The notes under the pieces are model-generated. The model saw only the letters and a program-made list of their open reading frames with translations, did not search any database and had not been told where the DNA came from. Below, one piece after another: positions 2,110 through 56,300 of a DNA stretch of 64,000 nt. The DNA lies in assembly GCF_027111255.2 (NCBI RefSeq), contig NZ_CP114285.2, positions 2,542,001 to 2,606,000 on the forward strand, read 5' to 3'. Source of the stretch: Flavobacterium flavigenum. Lineage in GTDB: Bacteria > Bacteroidota > Bacteroidia > Flavobacteriales > Flavobacteriaceae. A program made the translations under genes and the position numbers. The first letter of the stretch is position 1, and every line of letters starts with the position of its first letter.

Positions 2110-3192
2110 TTATGCATTGAAAATTTTCTCCTGGTGACCGATACTTTCCTGGTGAATTGCTTTAAACATTCTCAAAACAAACTCTTCAGTAAGACCTTTT
2201 TTCTCACCTTCTAAAATCATTTTTCCTAAAATTTCATTCCAACGGCTGTTTTGAAGAATTGCTACGTTAGCATCTTTTTTCACCTGACCAATTTCGTCAG
2301 CTACTTTCATACGTTTTCCTAAAAGCTCTAATAAGTTAGCATCAAGTACATCGATGTTAGCTCTCAGTTTCGTCATTTTTTGGCTGTACTCATCTGTAGT
2401 ATCATCCGTTTTTCTGATAGTCAAATCTTTAATGATTTGTTTCAAAGCATCCGGAGTAACTTGCTGTGCAGCATCAGACCAGGCATTGTCTGGGTCGAAG
2501 TGCGTTTCGATAATCATACCATCGTAATTCAAATCTAAAGCCTCTTGCGTTACTTCGAAAATCATTTTACGATCTCCAGTAATGTGAGATGGGTCGATGA
2601 TTAATGGTAAATCAGGGAATTTATTTTGCAATTCGATCGCAATCTGCCATTCCGGAATGTTTCTGTATTTTGTTTTTTCGTAAGTAGAAAAACCTCTGTG
2701 GATAACTCCTAATTTCTCGATACCTGCCATGTGTAAACGCTCAACACCACCTAACCATAAAGCTAAATCCGGGTTTACAGGGTTTTTAACCAAAACGATT
2801 TTATCTGTTCCTTTTAAAGTATCAGCAATTTCCTGAACTGCGAAAGGGTTTGCAGTTGTACGAGCACCAACCCATAATACATCGATATCATGTTCTAATG
2901 CTAGTTTACAGTGCGCTGCAGTTGCAACCTCAGTTCCCATTAACAAACCAGTTTCAGCTTTTGCTTTTTGTAACCATTTCAATCCGATTTCACCAACACC
3001 TTCAAATCCTCCCGGACGCGTTCTTGGTTTCCAGATTCCAGCTCTGAAAACGCTTACTTTAGAATCTTTTAATTCGTGAGCAATTTTCAAAACCTGATCT
3101 TCCGTTTCTGCACTACAAGGTCCAGCTATCACAAGTGGGTGATCTAAATTGAAATCTTCTAACCACTTTCTCATTTCTTTCTTATTTTCCAT
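2110..3192 (-). CDS. Bifunctional DAHP synthase / chorismate mutase
   Basis: The protein (360 aa) fuses two enzymes of aromatic amino acid synthesis. Residues 1 to about 262 form a KDPG-aldolase-like DAHP synthase that condenses phosphoenolpyruvate and erythrose-4-phosphate. It shows AGPCSAE at 23-29, KPRTRPGGFEG near 55-66 and the metal-site stretch IIDPSH. Residues about 275-360 form an AroQ-type helical chorismate mutase (chorismate to prephenate), with LRANIDVLDANLLELLGKR. It is the last gene of the pheA-aminotransferase-tyrA operon, 11 nt after tyrA. The fusion joins the first pathway step to the branch leading to Phe and Tyr, so the cytosolic enzyme is probably feedback-regulated through its mutase domain (inference). 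Confidence 0.95.
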   Translation of the reverse strand: MENKKEMRKWLEDFNLDHPLVIAGPCSAETEDQVLKIAHELKDSKVSVFRAGIWKPRTRPGGFEGVGEIGLKWLQKAKAETGLLMGTEVATAAHCKLALEHDIDVLWVGARTTANPFAVQEIADTLKGTDKIVLVKNPVNPDLALWLGGVERLHMAGIEKLGVIHRGFSTYEKTKYRNIPEWQIAIELQNKFPDLPLIIDPSHITGDRKMIFEVTQEALDLNYDGMIIETHFDPDNAWSDAAQQVTPDALKQIIKDLTIRKTDDTTDEYSQKMTKLRANIDVLDANLLELLGKRMKVADEIGQVKKDANVAILQNSRWNEILGKMILEGEKKGLTEEFVLRMFKAIHQESIGHQEKIFNA

Positions 3193-3203
3193 CTTATTCT
3201 AAT

Positions 3204-4064
3204 TTACTTTTTAGTTATTGTTAATCCGTTTAATATCTCTTTTATTTTATTTGTGCTTTCCATTTCATTAAAAATGGCGTTGTAATCTTCTTCTTTCAGC
3301 AAATCCCTAAACCGGCTCAGGTTTGCAATATATTCTTCTAAGGTTTCTAAGACGTGTTCTTTATTTTGTTTGAAAATCGGTGTCCACATCGCCGGCGAAC
3401 TTTTTGCAAGACGAACCGTGCTTTCAAATCCGCTTCCCGCCATGTCAAAAATATCCTGCTCGTCTTTTTCCTTATTCATTACCGTTTTTCCGAGCATAAA
3501 AGAACTGATGTGCGACAAATGCGAAACGTAAGCAATATGTTTGTCGTGCGAAACCGGATCCATATATCGAATTCTCATTCCGATTTCTGCAAAAAGTTTC
3601 AAAGCTTTTTCCTGCAGTTTAAAAGTGGTTTTTTCCACTTCGCATATAATATTTGTTTTTCCCTGAAACAAACCTCTTATTGCTGCCGATGGTCCTGAAA
3701 ACTCTGTTCCGGCAATTGGATGCGTCGCAATAAAATTTCTTCTTTTCGGGTGACTTGCCACTGCGTCACAGATTGGTTTTTTAGTCGAACCCACTTCAAA
3801 AACAATTGTTTTATCTCCAACTACATCGAGTACCTTTGGCAAAACCGTCAGTGCCACATCAACCGGAACCGAAACAATTACAAAATCGGCATCTGCCAAA
3901 TCTTCCATTTTTCCGGATTTTTCGACAACACCCAAATCAATTGCTTCCTGCAAATGTTTTTCGTTATTATCGATTCCAAAAATAGTCGCGTTCGGATGTT
4001 GCGCTTTGATGTCCAGCACCATTGAGCCACCTATTAACCCTATTCCTATTACATATACTTTCAT
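3204..4064 (-). CDS. tyrA: Prephenate dehydrogenase
   Basis: The 286-aa protein converts prephenate to 4-hydroxyphenylpyruvate with NAD(P)+, the committed step to tyrosine. An N-terminal Rossmann fold is visible (GIGLIGGSM, residues 6-14). The dehydrogenase motif HPIAGTEFSGP follows near residue 115, and an all-helical C-terminal half contains the HLSHISSFML segment. There is no ACT domain. It lies between the aminotransferase upstream (245-nt gap filled with two repeats) and the DAHP synthase-chorismate mutase downstream (11 nt). It is probably transcribed from the attenuated promoter at 6547-6576. Confidence 0.93.
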   Translation of the reverse strand: MKVYVIGIGLIGGSMVLDIKAQHPNATIFGIDNNEKHLQEAIDLGVVEKSGKMEDLADADFVIVSVPVDVALTVLPKVLDVVGDKTIVFEVGSTKKPICDAVASHPKRRNFIATHPIAGTEFSGPSAAIRGLFQGKTNIICEVEKTTFKLQEKALKLFAEIGMRIRYMDPVSHDKHIAYVSHLSHISSFMLGKTVMNKEKDEQDIFDMAGSGFESTVRLAKSSPAMWTPIFKQNKEHVLETLEEYIANLSRFRDLLKEEDYNAIFNEMESTNKIKEILNGLTITKK

Positions 4065-4078
4065 CTTTATTTTTATTT

Positions 4079-4166
4079 GAAGCTAATTCCTGCTATCCGC
4101 TTTATCTTTTATGGTGAACCCCACCATAAAAGGATGCCGCTTCTATCAGGGCTAGGGCTTTTTGTT
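4079..4166. repeat. Dispersed hairpin repeat (AACCC loop)
   Basis: A perfect 10-bp stem (4107-4116 with 4122-4131) encloses the loop AACCC. It is flanked by CTGCTATCCGC on the left and GCCGCTTCTATCAGGGC on the right. The same architecture occurs in inverse orientation at 7688-7712 with compensatory stem changes. It lies inside the aromatic operon between tyrA and the aminotransferase gene. Confidence 0.7.
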
Positions 4167-4309: not shown

Positions 4310-5455
4310 CTAAAACCTATCAATCGCTTCCTGTATCTTTTCCTCCTTAACACATAATGAGAACCTTATATATCCTTCACCGTTACTTCCAAAAATGGTT
4401 CCCGGCGTTATAAAAATATGTTTGTCGTATAATATTTCGTCAATGAACTTTTCTGCTGATTCGATGCCTTCCGGAAGTTTAGCCCAAACAAATAAGCCAA
4501 CTCCTTCTTTATATACTTTGCAACCTAGTTTCTCAGCCAGTTTTTCGGTTAATTCTCTACGGCGTCTGTAAATTTTATTATTATCTTCAAACCACGATTT
4601 ATCACATTTCAAAGCTGCAATCGCTCCTTTCTGAATTCCGTAGAACATTCCGCTGTCCATGTTGCTTTTTACTTTTAGAACTGCATCAATAATTTCAGGA
4701 TTTCCTAAAACCATTCCGACTCTCCAGCCTGCCATGTTGAATGTTTTACTAAGCGAATTCAACTCTAAAGCCACATCCTTCGCTCCTTCAAACTGCAGTA
4801 AACTCATCGGATTATCATTCAAAACAAAACTATATGGATTGTCGTTAATCAATAATATATTGTGTTTTTTAGCAAAAGCTACCAGTTTTTCAAATAACGC
4901 TGAACTTCCTCTCGCTCCTGTCGGCATGTGCGGATATCCCAACCACATAATTTTAACTTTCGAAAGATCTAATTTCTCTAAAGCTTCAAAATCCGGTTCC
5001 CAGGCATTTTCTTCTTTCAAATCATAATAAACCGGAACTGCCTGAACCAAATTAGTTACCGAAGTATAAGTCGGATACCCCGGATTCGGAATCAAAACGT
5101 GATCGCCTTCATTTAAAAATGCCAACGAAATATGCATAATTCCTTCTTTCGAACCCATCAATGGTAAAATCTCATTATTTGGATTCACTGCAACACCAAA
5201 CTGATCTTTATAAAAATCCGCCATCGCCTGTCTCATTTCCGGTAATCCCTGATAGCTTTGATAACCATGTCCGTTTTCATCCTGAATTGCTGCAGCTACT
5301 GCTTCAATTACTGCTTTTGACGGACTCAAATCAGGGCTTCCAATTCCCATACTGATGATTGGTTTTCCTTCAGACATCAATTGTCTCACTTCTCTCAATT
5401 TTGAGGAGAAGTAGTATTCTTCAACTGTGTCTAATCGTTTTGCTGTTGTAATCAT
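4310..5455 (-). CDS. PLP-dependent aminotransferase, aromatic/aspartate type (fold I)
   Basis: The 381-aa class I/II aminotransferase most likely transfers the amino group onto phenylpyruvate and 4-hydroxyphenylpyruvate, the last step to Phe and Tyr. The Schiff-base lysine is K237 in NSLSKTFNMAGWR. Other fold-I landmarks are IGSPDLSPS near residue 38, NPGYPTY in the substrate half, and INDNPYS before the lysine. Its position between pheA (86-nt gap) and tyrA supports the aromatic substrate. Sequence alone cannot exclude a broader aspartate or LL-diaminopimelate activity. Confidence 0.88.
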   Translation of the reverse strand: MITTAKRLDTVEEYYFSSKLREVRQLMSEGKPIISMGIGSPDLSPSKAVIEAVAAAIQDENGHGYQSYQGLPEMRQAMADFYKDQFGVAVNPNNEILPLMGSKEGIMHISLAFLNEGDHVLIPNPGYPTYTSVTNLVQAVPVYYDLKEENAWEPDFEALEKLDLSKVKIMWLGYPHMPTGARGSSALFEKLVAFAKKHNILLINDNPYSFVLNDNPMSLLQFEGAKDVALELNSLSKTFNMAGWRVGMVLGNPEIIDAVLKVKSNMDSGMFYGIQKGAIAALKCDKSWFEDNNKIYRRRRELTEKLAEKLGCKVYKEGVGLFVWAKLPEGIESAEKFIDEILYDKHIFITPGTIFGSNGEGYIRFSLCVKEEKIQEAIDRF

Positions 5456-5541: not shown

Positions 5542-6369
5542 TTATGGCTTGGTGTTTCTATATTCCCCCAATACTTTAAAATATTCTGCCATTATATTCA
5601 ACAATGCTTTTGCTTTTGCGTAATCTTCGTATTTTTCAAATGTCACATCTACAAAAAACGAATATTTCCAGGGTGTTTCAATTTTTGGAAGCGACTGGAT
5701 TTTGGTCAAATTCAGTTTGCAGTCGCTCATTACGTTTAGAACCGCTGCCAGACTTCCTCTTTTATGATCCAGTTCAAATTTGATGGAAGCTCTGTTGATT
5801 TCGCTTTCTGGCAAAAATGAATTTTGCTTTTTAATGATTACAAAACGGGTCATGTTGTTTTTGATTGTCTGAATCTCCGGTGCAATAATTTCAAGCTCGT
5901 ACATTTCTGAAGCTACTTTACTTCCTATCGCTGCAATTCCGGTTAATTGTTTTTCCTGAATTCTTCTTGCCGTTTCCGCCGTATCTTTATCTTCAACCAA
6001 TTTGATATTTGGATACGTTTTCAGGAAATCCATACATTGCAATAGTGCCATCGGGTGCGAATGAACTTCTTTTATGTCTTCAATCTTCTGACCTTTTAAA
6101 GCCATTAAATTTTGATGAATGCTCAAATAATGTTCTCCTATTATGTGTAAATTATTCTTGTCAATCAAAGCATAATTCGGAATAATCGGCCCCGCAATAG
6201 AATTTTCGATTGCCATAACCGCCTGATCTGATTTTCCGGCAATAAGGCTGTCAACCAATTCTTCAAAAGATAAACATTCGTCGATTTCAACATTTTCAGC
6301 AAAATACTCTTTCACTACCTGATGATGAAAAGAACCTTTGATACCTTGTATTGCAATTTTAGTTGTCAT
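5542..6369 (-). CDS. pheA: Prephenate dehydratase
   Basis: The 275-aa protein converts prephenate to phenylpyruvate for phenylalanine synthesis. Residues 1 to about 180 are the dehydratase domain, with IQGIKGSFHHQVV at the start and the catalytic T174-R175-F176 motif. Residues about 190-270 are an ACT domain (ELDHKRGSLAAVLNVM, then KIQSLPK where many homologues have an ESRP-like stretch), which usually senses phenylalanine. It is the first structural gene of the operon. Its ATG sits only 6 nt behind the U-tract of a terminator hairpin, so its expression depends on readthrough of the attenuator. Confidence 0.95.
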   Translation of the reverse strand: MTTKIAIQGIKGSFHHQVVKEYFAENVEIDECLSFEELVDSLIAGKSDQAVMAIENSIAGPIIPNYALIDKNNLHIIGEHYLSIHQNLMALKGQKIEDIKEVHSHPMALLQCMDFLKTYPNIKLVEDKDTAETARRIQEKQLTGIAAIGSKVASEMYELEIIAPEIQTIKNNMTRFVIIKKQNSFLPESEINRASIKFELDHKRGSLAAVLNVMSDCKLNLTKIQSLPKIETPWKYSFFVDVTFEKYEDYAKAKALLNIMAEYFKVLGEYRNTKP

Positions 6370-6375
6370 ATAGTC

Positions 6376-6404
6376 AAAAAAAAATCCTGATTTTCATCAG
6401 GATT
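6376..6404 (-). terminator. Attenuator terminator of the phe operon
   Basis: On the minus strand a perfect 9-bp stem (AATCCTGAT / ATCAGGATT, 6404-6396 with 6391-6383) with a GAAA loop runs into a nine-T tract. The tract ends 6 nt before the pheA ATG, so the hairpin ends transcription before the first structural gene. The 5' arm is shared with the alternative stem at 6399-6459. Confidence 0.9.
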
Positions 6405-6459
6405 GTATATTAGTTTTATTTGTCTTAAATTTTGTTTCAAATAACCATAGCACAATCCT
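6399..6459 (-). promoter_or_regulatory. Antiterminator stem of the phe attenuator
   Basis: AGGATTGT (6459-6452), overlapping the leader stop codon, is perfectly complementary to ACAATCCT (6406-6399), which includes the 5' arm of the terminator. The two hairpins are therefore mutually exclusive. A third, weaker pairing joins 6493-6483 (inside the leader codons) with 6464-6449, giving the classical 1:2, 2:3, 3:4 arrangement. Confidence 0.8.
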
Positions 6460-6517
6460 AACTTCTACTAAAGAAGAAATAAAAGTTGTTGCTAAAATAA
6501 AAACGGTTAGTTGCCAT
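6458..6517 (-). CDS. Phe/Tyr-rich leader peptide of the phe operon
   Basis: The short ORF reads MATNRFYFSNNFYFFFSRS and stops at TAG. It has six Phe and two Tyr codons in 19, including a Phe-Tyr-Phe-Phe-Phe run at codons 12-16. It starts about 30 nt after the predicted transcription start and ends 52 nt before the terminator hairpin. A ribosome stalled on codons 12-16 would cover region 1 (6483-6493) and free 6452-6459 to form the antiterminator. A ribosome reaching the stop codon would mask that segment and let the terminator form. It is analogous to PheL of enterobacteria, though the sequence is unrelated. It was found by reading; it is below usual gene-calling length. Confidence 0.85.
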   Translation of the reverse strand: MATNRFYFSNNFYFFFSRS

Positions 6518-6546
6518 TTTGTTTGTGTTATTTTTTAAATTCTGTG

Positions 6547-6576
6547 CGAATGTATAAATTATTTTGACCTCACCAA
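6547..6576 (-). promoter_or_regulatory. Promoter of the phe operon leader
   Basis: On the minus strand TTG (6576-6574), 19 nt, then TACATTCG (6554-6547) matches the Bacteroidota -33/-7 consensus TTG / TAnnTTTG with one mismatch. The start of transcription would be near 6541, about 25 nt before the leader peptide ATG. Confidence 0.7.
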
Positions 6577-7659: not shown

Positions 7660-7745
7660 CAGTGAACTTCGTTTGCAGTGAAAATCCTTTTGTGCCGGGG
7701 TTCGGCACAAAAGATTGCAACGAAAAGCGGGAATAGCTCCTGAAA
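7660..7745. repeat. Dispersed hairpin repeat, second copy (possible terminator)
   Basis: A 10-bp stem (7688-7697 with 7703-7712) has loop GGGTT on the plus strand, which is AACCC on the minus strand. Minus-strand flanks AGGAGCTATTCCCGC and AAAAGGAT match the copy at 4079-4166. It lies just after the DUF1501 stop codon and could end that transcript. Confidence 0.7.
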
Positions 7746-53362: not shown

Positions 53363-56300
53363 TTATCCAACCAAATTAATGATCTTCCCAGGAACAATAA
53401 TCACTTTATTTGGCGTTCTTCCCTCTAATTGTTTTTGCGTTCTTTCGTCTTTCATTACGATTTCTTCGATTTGTGCTGCGGTCAAATCCAAAGGCAATTT
53501 GATGGTGAAACGCATTTTTCCGTTGAAAGAAACCGGATATTCTTTCTCCGATTCTACCAAATGTTTTTCTTCAAAAACCGGGAAAGGAACTTCTGAAATG
53601 GAAGTTGTATTTCCTAACTGTGACCATAATTCCTCTGCAATATGTGGCGCGTAAGGCGAAACCAAAATCGCTAACGGTTCTAAAATCGCTCTTGAATGAC
53701 AATTTTGAGAAGACAATTCGTTCACACAAATCATAAACTGTGAAACCGACGTATTGAAAGAGAAATTCTCAATATCATCTGCTACTTTTTTGATGGTTTT
53801 ATGTAATGATTTCAAGTTGTCTTTTGTTGGTTCGTCGTTGTTTACGATTAAGCCGTTATCATCAAAATACAATCTCCATAATTTTTTAAGAAAACCAAAA
53901 ACTCCCGAAATACCAGCCGTATTCCAGGGTTTTGCCTGCTCTAACGGACCTAAGAACATTTCGTATAAACGTAATGTATCTGCTCCGTATTCTGCACAAA
54001 TATCATCTGGCGTTACTACGTTGTATTTCGATTTTGACATTTTTTCAACTTCTCTCGAAACAAAGAACTTCTCATTTCTAGTTACAAATTTAGCCTCTCT
54101 AAAATAAAAATCATTTTTCTTTAATTCTTCAAAATCTAATTCGTCATTTCCATTTACAAAACTAACAGGAACATGCAATCTATATGTTTTTAAAGGAGAT
54201 AATGGGGAAATTTCAATATTCTCTTTATTAATACCATTCTCCTCTAACTCTTTATAAATAGGAACTAAAAATTCATCTGAAATTTCTCGAAATAATGTAT
54301 CTGAATTAACATCATTTACATTTTTCAGATCTGATACAATATCAGCCGAAAAATATGTGTTTTTAATAATTTCAGCTTTTTCAATTATTTGATTTATTTT
54401 TTCAAAGTCCTGATCTGCTTCCTTTATTTGACTATTTAAATTAGGGAATTTCTCATTGTCAGATTTCTTAGACACTTTCAAATTAAATCCTATCATATTT
54501 ACAAACGCACTAGTCCCTAAAATCATTCCCTGATTAATCAGTTTTTTGAATGGTTCTTCAGTTGGAGCGAAACCTTTGTCTTTTAAGAATTTATTCCAGA
54601 AACGAGAATACAATAAGTGTCCGGTTGCGTGCTCGCTTCCTCCAATGTATAAATCTACACTTTCCCAATAGGCCAAAGCTTCTTTTGAGGCAAATTCATT
54701 TTCATTATGTGCGTCCATATAACGCATCCAATACCATGAACTTCCTGCCCAGCCCGGCATTGTGTTTAATTCTAAAGGAAAAATCGAAACGTTATCAACT
54801 AAATCGGTATTAACAACTTTGTTTTCGTTCGTGTCCCAAGCCCAAACGGCAGCATTTCCTAATGGAGGCAATCCGTCTTCGGTTGGTAGATATTTCTCTA
54901 CTTCCGGCAAAATAATGGGCAAATGCTGTGCCTCGATCATTTTAGGCAATCCGTTTACGTAATAAACCGGGAAAGGCTCTCCCCAATAACGCTGACGTGA
55001 GAATACTGCATCACGCAAACGATAATTGGTTTTACCGGTTCCCTGACCTATTTCTTCTAATTTTTCGATCGCTTTTTTAGTCGCTTCTTTATAATTTAAT
55101 CCGTTTAGGAAATCAGAATTGGCGATTTCAACATTGTCTTTTGATCCGTAAGCGGCTTCAGAAACATCAACATTGGCGAAAATGTTTTTGATTTCCTGCA
55201 TTCCGTTTTGACCTTTAAAGAAATTAGCAAAAGCGTAATCTCTTTCGTCTCCGCAAGGAACCGCCATAACAGCACCAGTTCCGTAACCTGCCAAAACGTA
55301 ATCTCCAATCCAAACCGGAATTGGTTCTTTTGTAAACGGATGCTCTGCATACGCTCCTGTGAAAACTCCAGAAATGGTTTTTACATCCGCCATACGCTCA
55401 CGCTCCGAACGTTTTGATGTTTTTTCGATATAGGCTTCAACCGCTGCTTTTTGTTCCGGAGTTGTAATTTTAGCAACCAAATCGTGTTCAGGTGCCAAAG
55501 TCATGAATGTTACTCCGAAGATGGTATCAGGTCTTGTTGTGAAAACATCTATAGTTGTTGGTTGTTGGTTGTTGGTTGTTGGCACTACATTAAAACTCAC
55601 CATTGCACCAACACTTTTTCCAATCCAGTTTCTTTGTGATTCTTTAATTGACTCACTCCAGTCGATATCATTTAATCCTTGAAGCAAGCGTTCGGCATAA
55701 GCAGAAATTCGCATACTCCATTGTGTCATTTTTTTTCTTATGACAGGATAGCCTCCACGTTCCGAAACTCCGTTTACGATTTCGTCGTTTGCCAGAACAG
55801 TTCCTAAGCCTGGACACCAGTTTACTTCTGTTTCTGCTAAATAGGTTAATCTGTATTGCAAAAGGATTTTTTCCTGTTCCTCTTTCGAAAATAACATCCA
55901 TTCATTTGATGAAAAAGTCACAACGTTATCATCGCAAACTGCATTTACACTTCTATTTCCATCTTGTTCAAAAATTGAAACTAAAGTCGAAATATCTTCT
56001 GCTTTATCTGAATTTTTATTGTACCAGGAATTGAACAACTGAATAAAAATCCATTGTGTATGTTTATAATAATCCGGATTTGAGGTACGCACTTCACGCG
56101 CCCAGTCAAATGAGAACCCGATTTTATCTAATTGTTTTCTGTATCCTGCAATTTGCTTTCCTTCTTTATCTACTCCTCCATCAATATTTACGCGAGTTGT
56201 GTCTTCCGGACGTTGTCCTGTCTGAATGGCGTATTGCTCTGCCGGCAATCCGAAACTGTCGTAACCCATCGGGTGCAAAACATTGAATCCCTGATGTCTT

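Follow-up and report, generated by a model that had tools for sequence, protein, structure and literature searches.

Leader-peptide attenuation is a textbook mechanism that is best known from Proteobacteria and Actinobacteria. In the enterobacterial pheL-pheA system, a Phe-rich leader ORF is accompanied by alternative RNA pairings and by a terminator that adjoins pheA. For the Bacteroidota, the text of a 2021 study of Flavobacterium psychrophilum (PMC9723704) describes conserved structured 5' elements upstream of pheA and hisG, reports such elements, which lack Rfam hits, from other genera of the Flavobacteriaceae, and speaks of 'strong clues' for leader-peptide attenuation ahead of amino acid biosynthesis operons. 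The sequence of the leader, its pairings, the spacing of its codons and its distribution beyond these genera are absent from that text; some of these may be included in Table S7/D9 of the study. In addition, Table 1 of PMC2864571 lists the Bacteroid-trp motif (RF01692), a cis-regulatory RNA candidate of Bacteroidetes, and, from Actinobacteria, a 'pheA' motif that bears no Rfam number there. A search for literature on leader-peptide attenuation in Bacteroidetes, which covered little of the subscription literature, returned nothing closer than PMC9723704 (a 2010 survey may list cases).

Here we analyse the region upstream of pheA in a 64-kb stretch of Flavobacterium flavigenum DNA, the whole of which we refer to as the window. 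The element found there resembles pheL-pheA (RF01859, Phe_leader) in having a Phe-rich leader ORF, alternative pairings and a terminator adjoining pheA. Unlike pheL-pheA, its leader contains Tyr codons, and in relatives often Trp codons, besides those for Phe; the leader has no Shine-Dalgarno-like motif; and the operon adds genes for an aminotransferase, TyrA and a DAHP synthase/chorismate mutase. The RF01859 covariance model does not match the window (18.3 bits, E 0.95, against a gathering score of 55), and RF01692 has no match in the 64 kb. The pheA element described in the text of PMC9723704 belongs to the same gene and the same genus as the one studied here, so that the original prediction, which had called leaders of this type in Bacteroidota little documented, was only partly right. 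The mechanism of attenuation and, from that text, a conserved 5' element of pheA in F. psychrophilum were already known; the present analysis adds the occurrence throughout and outside the family, the covariation of three strands, the spacing between codons and hairpin, and a larger 1:2 hairpin.

Organization of the pheA leader region

The features of the locus are the following.

6547..6576, minus strand: predicted Bacteroidota sigma-A promoter (TTG at 6576-6574, N19, TACATTCG at 6554-6547)
6458..6517, minus strand: leader peptide ORF MATNRFYFSNNFYFFFSRS, 19 codons (ATG at 6517-6515, stop TAG at 6460-6458)
6503..6509, minus strand: outer arm of region 1, TAACCGT, predicted to pair with ATGGTTA at 6448-6442
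6483..6493, minus strand: inner arm of region 1, AGCAACAACTT, predicted to pair with 6459-6449 (part of region 2)
6438..6462, minus strand: region 2, with core AGGATTGT at 6459-6452, extended to 6438; its partner is region 1 or region 3
6411..6422, minus strand: distal antiterminator arm CAAATAAAACTA, which pairs with 6447-6438 and lengthens the antiterminator
6396..6407, minus strand: region 3, TACAATCCTGAT, with ACAATCCT at 6406-6399; its partner is region 2 (antiterminator) or region 4 (terminator)
6383..6391, minus strand: region 4, ATCAGGATT, the 3' arm of the terminator
6404-6396 with 6391-6383, minus strand: stem of the intrinsic terminator, 9 bp with loop GAAA; termination is predicted
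6376..6384, minus strand: T tract of the terminator, nine T's, two of them inside the stem
5542..6369, minus strand: pheA, prephenate dehydratase, 275 aa, first gene of the operon (ATG at 6369-6367)
4310..5455, minus strand: PLP-dependent aminotransferase gene (matches aminotransferase models with scores below the curated cut-offs)
3204..4064, minus strand: tyrA, prephenate dehydrogenase (PRK08507, 396 bits against a cut-off of 295)
2110..3192, minus strand: fusion gene of DAHP synthase and chorismate mutase domains (both matched, below the curated cut-offs)

The leader ORF contains six Phe and two Tyr codons, and its aromatic clusters are formed by codons 6-8 and 12-16. The original prediction of a 19-residue leader with this codon content was borne out by the sequence, as were the 9-bp 3:4 terminator, the tract of nine T's and the pheA start 6 nt beyond it; this start lies 13 nt past the end of the 3:4 hairpin. 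The core of region 2, AGGATTGT, overlaps the leader stop codon, and region 3 reads ACAATCCT(GAT). The pheA product matches prephenate dehydratase models (best E 7.9e-59) with 199 bits, which is below the curated cut-off of 219. The genes in the predicted order pheA-aminotransferase-tyrA-DAHP synthase/chorismate mutase are probably co-transcribed as an operon.

When both strands of the window were searched for ORFs of 10-45 codons with at least six aromatic codons in 10, 26 were found, two of which are followed by a terminator-like site: the pheA leader, with its ATG, and a TTG-started ORF at 53999. The rule that combines leader and terminator was satisfied by none of 960 dinucleotide-shuffled pheA upstream regions. 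(Two Flavo-1 RNAs (RF01705) flank the region, one at 4082-4157 on the minus strand (79.1 bits), inside the operon between the aminotransferase gene and tyrA, and one at 7661-7738 on the plus strand (61.4 bits). Among 20 pheA loci of the same genus that were scanned, eight have a Flavo-1 match past the aminotransferase gene, a count that may miss further matches because the loci stop about 1500 nt past pheA.)

Proposed mechanism

The pheA leader is, with high probability, a ribosome-mediated transcription attenuator, as the original prediction had held for this Phe/Tyr operon; the conservation of codons, stems and spacing described below supports this assignment. The evidence for it in the sequence consists of conserved parts, compensatory pairings and spacing; transcription start, co-transcription, stalling, termination and the response to amino acids are inferred. 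RNA polymerase would start near position 6542 and a ribosome would load at once on the leader ORF. With ample charged Phe (and Tyr) tRNA, the ribosome would reach the stop codon and sit on region 2, leaving region 3 free to pair with region 4, and transcription would end at the T tract before pheA. If charged Phe or Tyr tRNA were short, the ribosome would stall in the aromatic block (codons 12-16, and also 6-8), where it would cover region 1 and leave region 2 open; regions 2 and 3 would then pair, no terminator would form and the operon would be transcribed. The 1:2 hairpin would be the one able to form first whenever region 1 is free of a ribosome.

Distribution of the element

A pheA gene was found in 59 of 91 genomes of the same genus. 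Of these, 58 upstream regions were read (G069, with two contig-end fragments, was left out), and 56 were complete; L030 and L040, which are cut by contig ends with the terminator still visible, are not among the 56. Leader and terminator are present in 54 of the 56 and missing in L057 and L058, the pheA of which is 42-49% identical. In the best 80 of 420 named pheA loci, 76 of which belong to Flavobacterium (the closest being F. hibisci, 99%), leader and terminator are present in all 80. (Note that 32 genomes of the genus gave no pheA match, among them 22 of the 76 with a completeness of 90% or more and a contamination of 5% or less; it seems that the genus has commonly lost Phe synthesis.)

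For the family as a whole, 149 genomes of 148 genera were surveyed. These yielded pheA in 138, and the 136 outside the genus were taken. The element is present in 133 of the 136 genera (127 by script and 6 by eye) and missing in L107, L161 and L181; in L138 it lies more than 300 nt upstream of pheA. Thus 192 upstream regions entered the strict scan and 181 passed, the 11 failures being the 6 with an element recognized by eye and the 5 without one (L107, L161, L181, L057 and L058). The original prediction had suggested aligning pheA upstream regions of other Flavobacteriaceae, and in this comparison Phe and Tyr codons and stems are conserved in 54 of 56 within the genus and 133 of 136 other genera. 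Having been placed in a single Flavobacterium, the attenuator proves to have been assigned too narrowly: it is found throughout the family and beyond.

Outside the family we took L200-L212 and L214-L244, a subset of the distant matches (L220 and L221 were not re-found by tblastn). Among seven other families of the same order with a pheA match, leaders are present in four (L200-L204, L206, L214-L216) and missing in three (L205, L207-L212, L217-L219). In other orders of the class, an aromatic-rich leader precedes pheA at seven of eight loci, L222 being without one. The 15 loci from other classes of the phylum comprise L225 and L226, with leader and hairpin (pheA 44-46% identical), and L232-L244, with a leader at none of the 13 (pheA 31-41% identical). 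Of note, the pheA genes of L225 and L226 are closer to that of the window (44-46%) than are the pheA genes of other genomes from their families (about 30-33%), which suggests that pheA and its leader and hairpin were transferred laterally together.

Pairing was tested at 18 distant loci with an aromatic-rich leader. A hairpin and a region 2 were recovered at 16 of them, and in 15 of these 16 the 2:3 pairing beat at least 97% of 200 base-shuffled controls; L225 did not (p 0.33). The remaining two, L224 and L230, returned no hairpin within the range of the script, though one can be recognized by eye. The stems of the distant loci are unrelated to those of the window, for instance AGAGCGGTC with GACCGCT in L214 and GGACCATC with GATGGTCC in L229.

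Two simpler markers were tried and discarded. FYFFF-like aromatic runs occur at 53 and 63 places in the genome, against 40 and 47 for the reversed pattern, and are uninformative alone; the terminator pattern by itself also occurs in genomes without pheA. (The CCTGAT form of the terminator occurs at one place in the genome of the window, with up to one mismatch allowed.)

Promoter and translation start context

The promoter that the original prediction had placed ahead of the leader is recovered as a sequence close to the Bacteroidota sigma-A form at 6576-6547. From it, transcription is predicted to start at about 6542, which would leave about 25 untranslated nt ahead of the leader ATG; a start downstream of 6458 would have spoken against the leader, and the predicted start lies upstream of it. 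Across the upstream regions, 173 of 180 have a -7 box, TAnnTT[TCA]G, in the 70 nt that precede the leader ATG, against 12.8% of 1800 shuffled sequences, and a -7 box with TTG 17-21 nt upstream is present in 122 of 180, against 0.9% of shuffled sequences (these shuffles preserve base composition only). The position of the -7 box relative to the transcription start was taken from the text of PMC9723704.

The leader start codon is ATG in all 181 regions, in a scan whose script favours ATG when several starts are possible. Position -3 is occupied by an A in 151 of 181, and one of the 181 has an SD-like motif. Bacteroidetes mRNAs are described in PMC6847099, as far as its text was consulted, as lacking SD sequences, with an A at -3 aiding initiation, and the putative translation context of the leader fits this norm of the phylum.

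Amino acids probably sensed by the leader

Phe and Tyr codons both occur in all 181 scanned leaders. In the 127 leaders recovered by script from other genera, the mean number of codons per leader is 5.4 for Phe, 3.5 for Tyr and 0.7 for Trp, and at least one Trp codon is found in 84 of these 127 and in 17 of the 54 Flavobacterium leaders. The original description of a Phe/Tyr leader therefore holds for Phe and Tyr, which are used throughout, and is incomplete in that Trp is also used in most other genera. Since the operon serves the synthesis of Phe and Tyr and also encodes the step by which the common aromatic pathway is entered, codons for Tyr and Trp would make sense in its leader.

Predicted alternative pairings of the leader RNA

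In the predicted 1:2 hairpin, the first aromatic cluster lies unpaired within the outer stem TAACCGT/ATGGTTA. The 1:2 pairing proposed originally (6483-6493 with 6449-6464) had captured the inner part of this hairpin and missed the outer stem. In other lineages of Flavobacterium both outer arms are replaced, for example by ATAGCACA/TGTGCTAT in L051. Relative to shuffles that preserve dinucleotides, the 1:2 segment has a mean z of -3.2 (z < -2 in 153 of 181) and the 2:3 segment a mean z of -4.05 (z < -2 in 176 of 181). For the window, the stability of 2:3 (-17.2) exceeds that of 1:2 (-14.9); the order is reversed in 143 of 181 upstream regions.

We looked for compensatory changes in the stems, a check that the original prediction had called for, and found them for both 3:4 and 2:3, in the genus and in the family. 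The 54 alignment rows of the genus had been chosen with a terminator pattern in which most letters of the stem are set and one position on each side may vary, so that only the free position and positions outside the pattern are informative on 3:4. Among the 49 distinct rows, the freely varying position of the terminator stem is U-A in 26, C-G in 22, U-G in 1 and mispaired in none; at the same region-3 position, the antiterminator 2:3 is A-U in 25, G-C in 22 and gapped in 2. In these 49 rows, 97.9% of cells are paired in the antiterminator core and 79.6% in the weaker distal arm CAAATAAAACTA. For 3:4 and for 2:3, the covariation score and the paired cells lie above those of all 500 shuffles, in tests of a sort that kinship among rows inflates. 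On the weaker measures, both-sided changes were reached by 6 (3:4) and 28 (2:3) of 500 shuffles, and further pair types by 500 (3:4) and 79 (2:3) of 500.

In the pairing count across the family, which left out six of the 181 rows with another form of hairpin, the six core positions of region 3 each find a partner in region 2 in at least 144, and in up to all, of the 175 rows. Exchanges of the G-C to A-U type occur at three region-3 positions and are matched in region 4. (Note that 3:4 is paired in 175 of 175 by construction, since pairing was demanded; the information lies in the differing letters and in region 2.) As read from these alignments, regions 2, 3 and 4 change together, a three-strand compensatory change in which the antiterminator and the terminator would be mutually exclusive.

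Because region 2 was defined as the best duplex with region 3, controls with the region 3 of another genome and with shuffled bases were included. The 2:3 duplex has a mean energy of -12.2 kcal/mol with its own region 3 (< -8 in 178 of 181), -8.3 kcal/mol with that of another genome (53% < -8) and -5.5 kcal/mol after base shuffling (12% < -8). That 53% of partners from other genomes pass -8 kcal/mol is explained by the many genera that share stems.

The same hairpins could in principle act mainly on translation, with the 3:4 hairpin, 13 nt before the ATG, hindering ribosome binding to pheA and 2:3 freeing the site. In the window, the hairpin does fall within the stretch that a 30S subunit at the pheA start would likely cover, and in 94 of 181 regions no more than 15 nt separate the hairpin from the earliest in-frame codon at which pheA could start. 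In 29 of 181, however, this distance exceeds 50 nt, which is beyond the reach of occlusion, and hairpin and T's remain, so that occlusion of the start cannot be what the hairpin does in general. Moreover, none of the 54 genus rows has a T tract shorter than 7 T's (the selection pattern demanded at least 4). We consider such a translational switch improbable. (L026 and L034 have 65-85 nt between the terminator and the conserved pheA start, together with an earlier in-frame start 15-26 nt past the hairpin, and their pheA product seems to bear an extra N-terminal stretch. These long gaps were dropped as an argument against translational control, as the pheA frames start 26 and 15 nt past the hairpin, respectively.)

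Codon-to-hairpin geometry and modelled ribosome position

Measured in 3-nt bins, aromatic codons occupy the positions 24, 21, 18 and 15 nt before region 2 in 98, 100, 99 and 95% of leaders, respectively, and those at 12 and 9 nt in 37% and 1%. In 165 of 181 leaders, 9-13 nt separate the last aromatic codon from region 2; outside the family the distance is 9-14 nt in 11 of 16, the others being 4, 4, 6, 6 and 20 nt. In E. coli the ribosome footprint extends 18 nt upstream and 12 nt downstream of the A-site codon. With a footprint of this size, a ribosome in the aromatic block would spare region 2, and one positioned one or two codons later would cover part of it.

This spacing also bears on whether the peptide itself, rather than slow decoding, stalls the ribosome. 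Within most of the genus NRFYFSN and FYFFF-like runs are kept, as would suit an arrest peptide, yet across genera only the aromatic character of the block is kept: F, Y and W swap at most block positions, other residues vary freely, and the distance from the end of the block to region 2 is nearly constant. Nascent-peptide arrest is therefore very improbable. A ligand- or tRNA-binding RNA (riboswitch or T-box) or a protein-binding attenuator to which the small ORF is incidental would share the alternative hairpins common to all of these, but it is the least probable reading of all, as no Rfam family, T-box and riboswitch models included, reaches its gathering score at the leader site, where the scores below threshold are at chance level, and distant relatives differ in stem sequence and keep the aromatic codons and frame.

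Returning to ribosome-mediated attenuation, a ribosome with the assumed footprint that has reached the leader stop would overlie half or more of the bases of region 2 in 172 of 181 leaders, none in 5 of 181 and all of them in the window. Under this model, the original prediction that a ribosome finishing at the stop would mask region 2 holds for the window. The placement of the stop over region 2 likewise stands for the window and does not extend to relatives, in which the stop can lie as early as 7 nt ahead of the first base of region 2 and as late as 29 nt beyond it. The stop is labile: the clade of the window has TAG just before GATTG, and 74 of the 80 named relatives have a sense codon there and read through region 2 to ...DCAMVI. 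The RNA is thus preserved as the end of the leader peptide changes. Aromatic codons occur again within region 2 in 30% of the leaders that reach +9 nt, and in the footprint model a stall at these codons would give no antitermination.

We modelled how likely 2:3 is to form while region 4 has yet to be transcribed. The mean probability is 0.93 for a ribosome stalled at whichever of the last four aromatic codons gives the highest value, and 0.003 for one at the stop, the stalled value exceeding the stop value in 181 of 181; the low value at the stop arises partly because the fold was restricted to RNA downstream of the ribosome. For a ribosome on the earliest codons the modelled probability is 0.8-0.9. 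In an equilibrium fold with no ribosome and RNA up to region 3, the probability of 2:3 is 0.82 in the window and 0.61 on average, and below 0.5 in only 64 of 181. Since 2:3 often wins at equilibrium in the absence of a ribosome, default termination would rest on 1:2 forming first.

Discussion

The comparative evidence indicates that a leader-peptide attenuator is the usual arrangement at pheA across the Flavobacteriaceae, and that it is found in other lineages of the class as well. Attenuation would thus be present in bacteria whose mRNAs largely lack Shine-Dalgarno sequences. Because attenuation needs a ribosome that paces RNA polymerase, the coupling of transcription and translation in Bacteroidota becomes directly testable at this leader.

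We lean somewhat towards a broader reading, namely that the leader senses Phe, Tyr and Trp, that this design is old in the Bacteroidia, with its stem sequences completely turned over and its spacing mostly kept, and that it likely moved with pheA to at least two other lineages of the phylum, those of L225 and L226. If so, an old three-aromatic design would imply close coupling of ribosome and RNA polymerase at gene starts in bacteria that initiate translation without relying on Shine-Dalgarno sequences. The tight spacing from the last aromatic codon to region 2 would further provide an evolutionary estimate of the front half of the ribosome footprint in Bacteroidota, and the roughly 200 homologues with covarying stems could serve as the basis for a new RNA family.

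A second candidate was observed in the same genome. Upstream of hisG (L245, about position 1325), a GC-rich hairpin with T's comes after a His-rich leader, MFINQLHHHHFHNCSQAMC, the two forming a putative attenuator. In this one genome looked at, the putative his leader has the same layout as the pheA leader and differs from it in its His codons and in the operon that follows.
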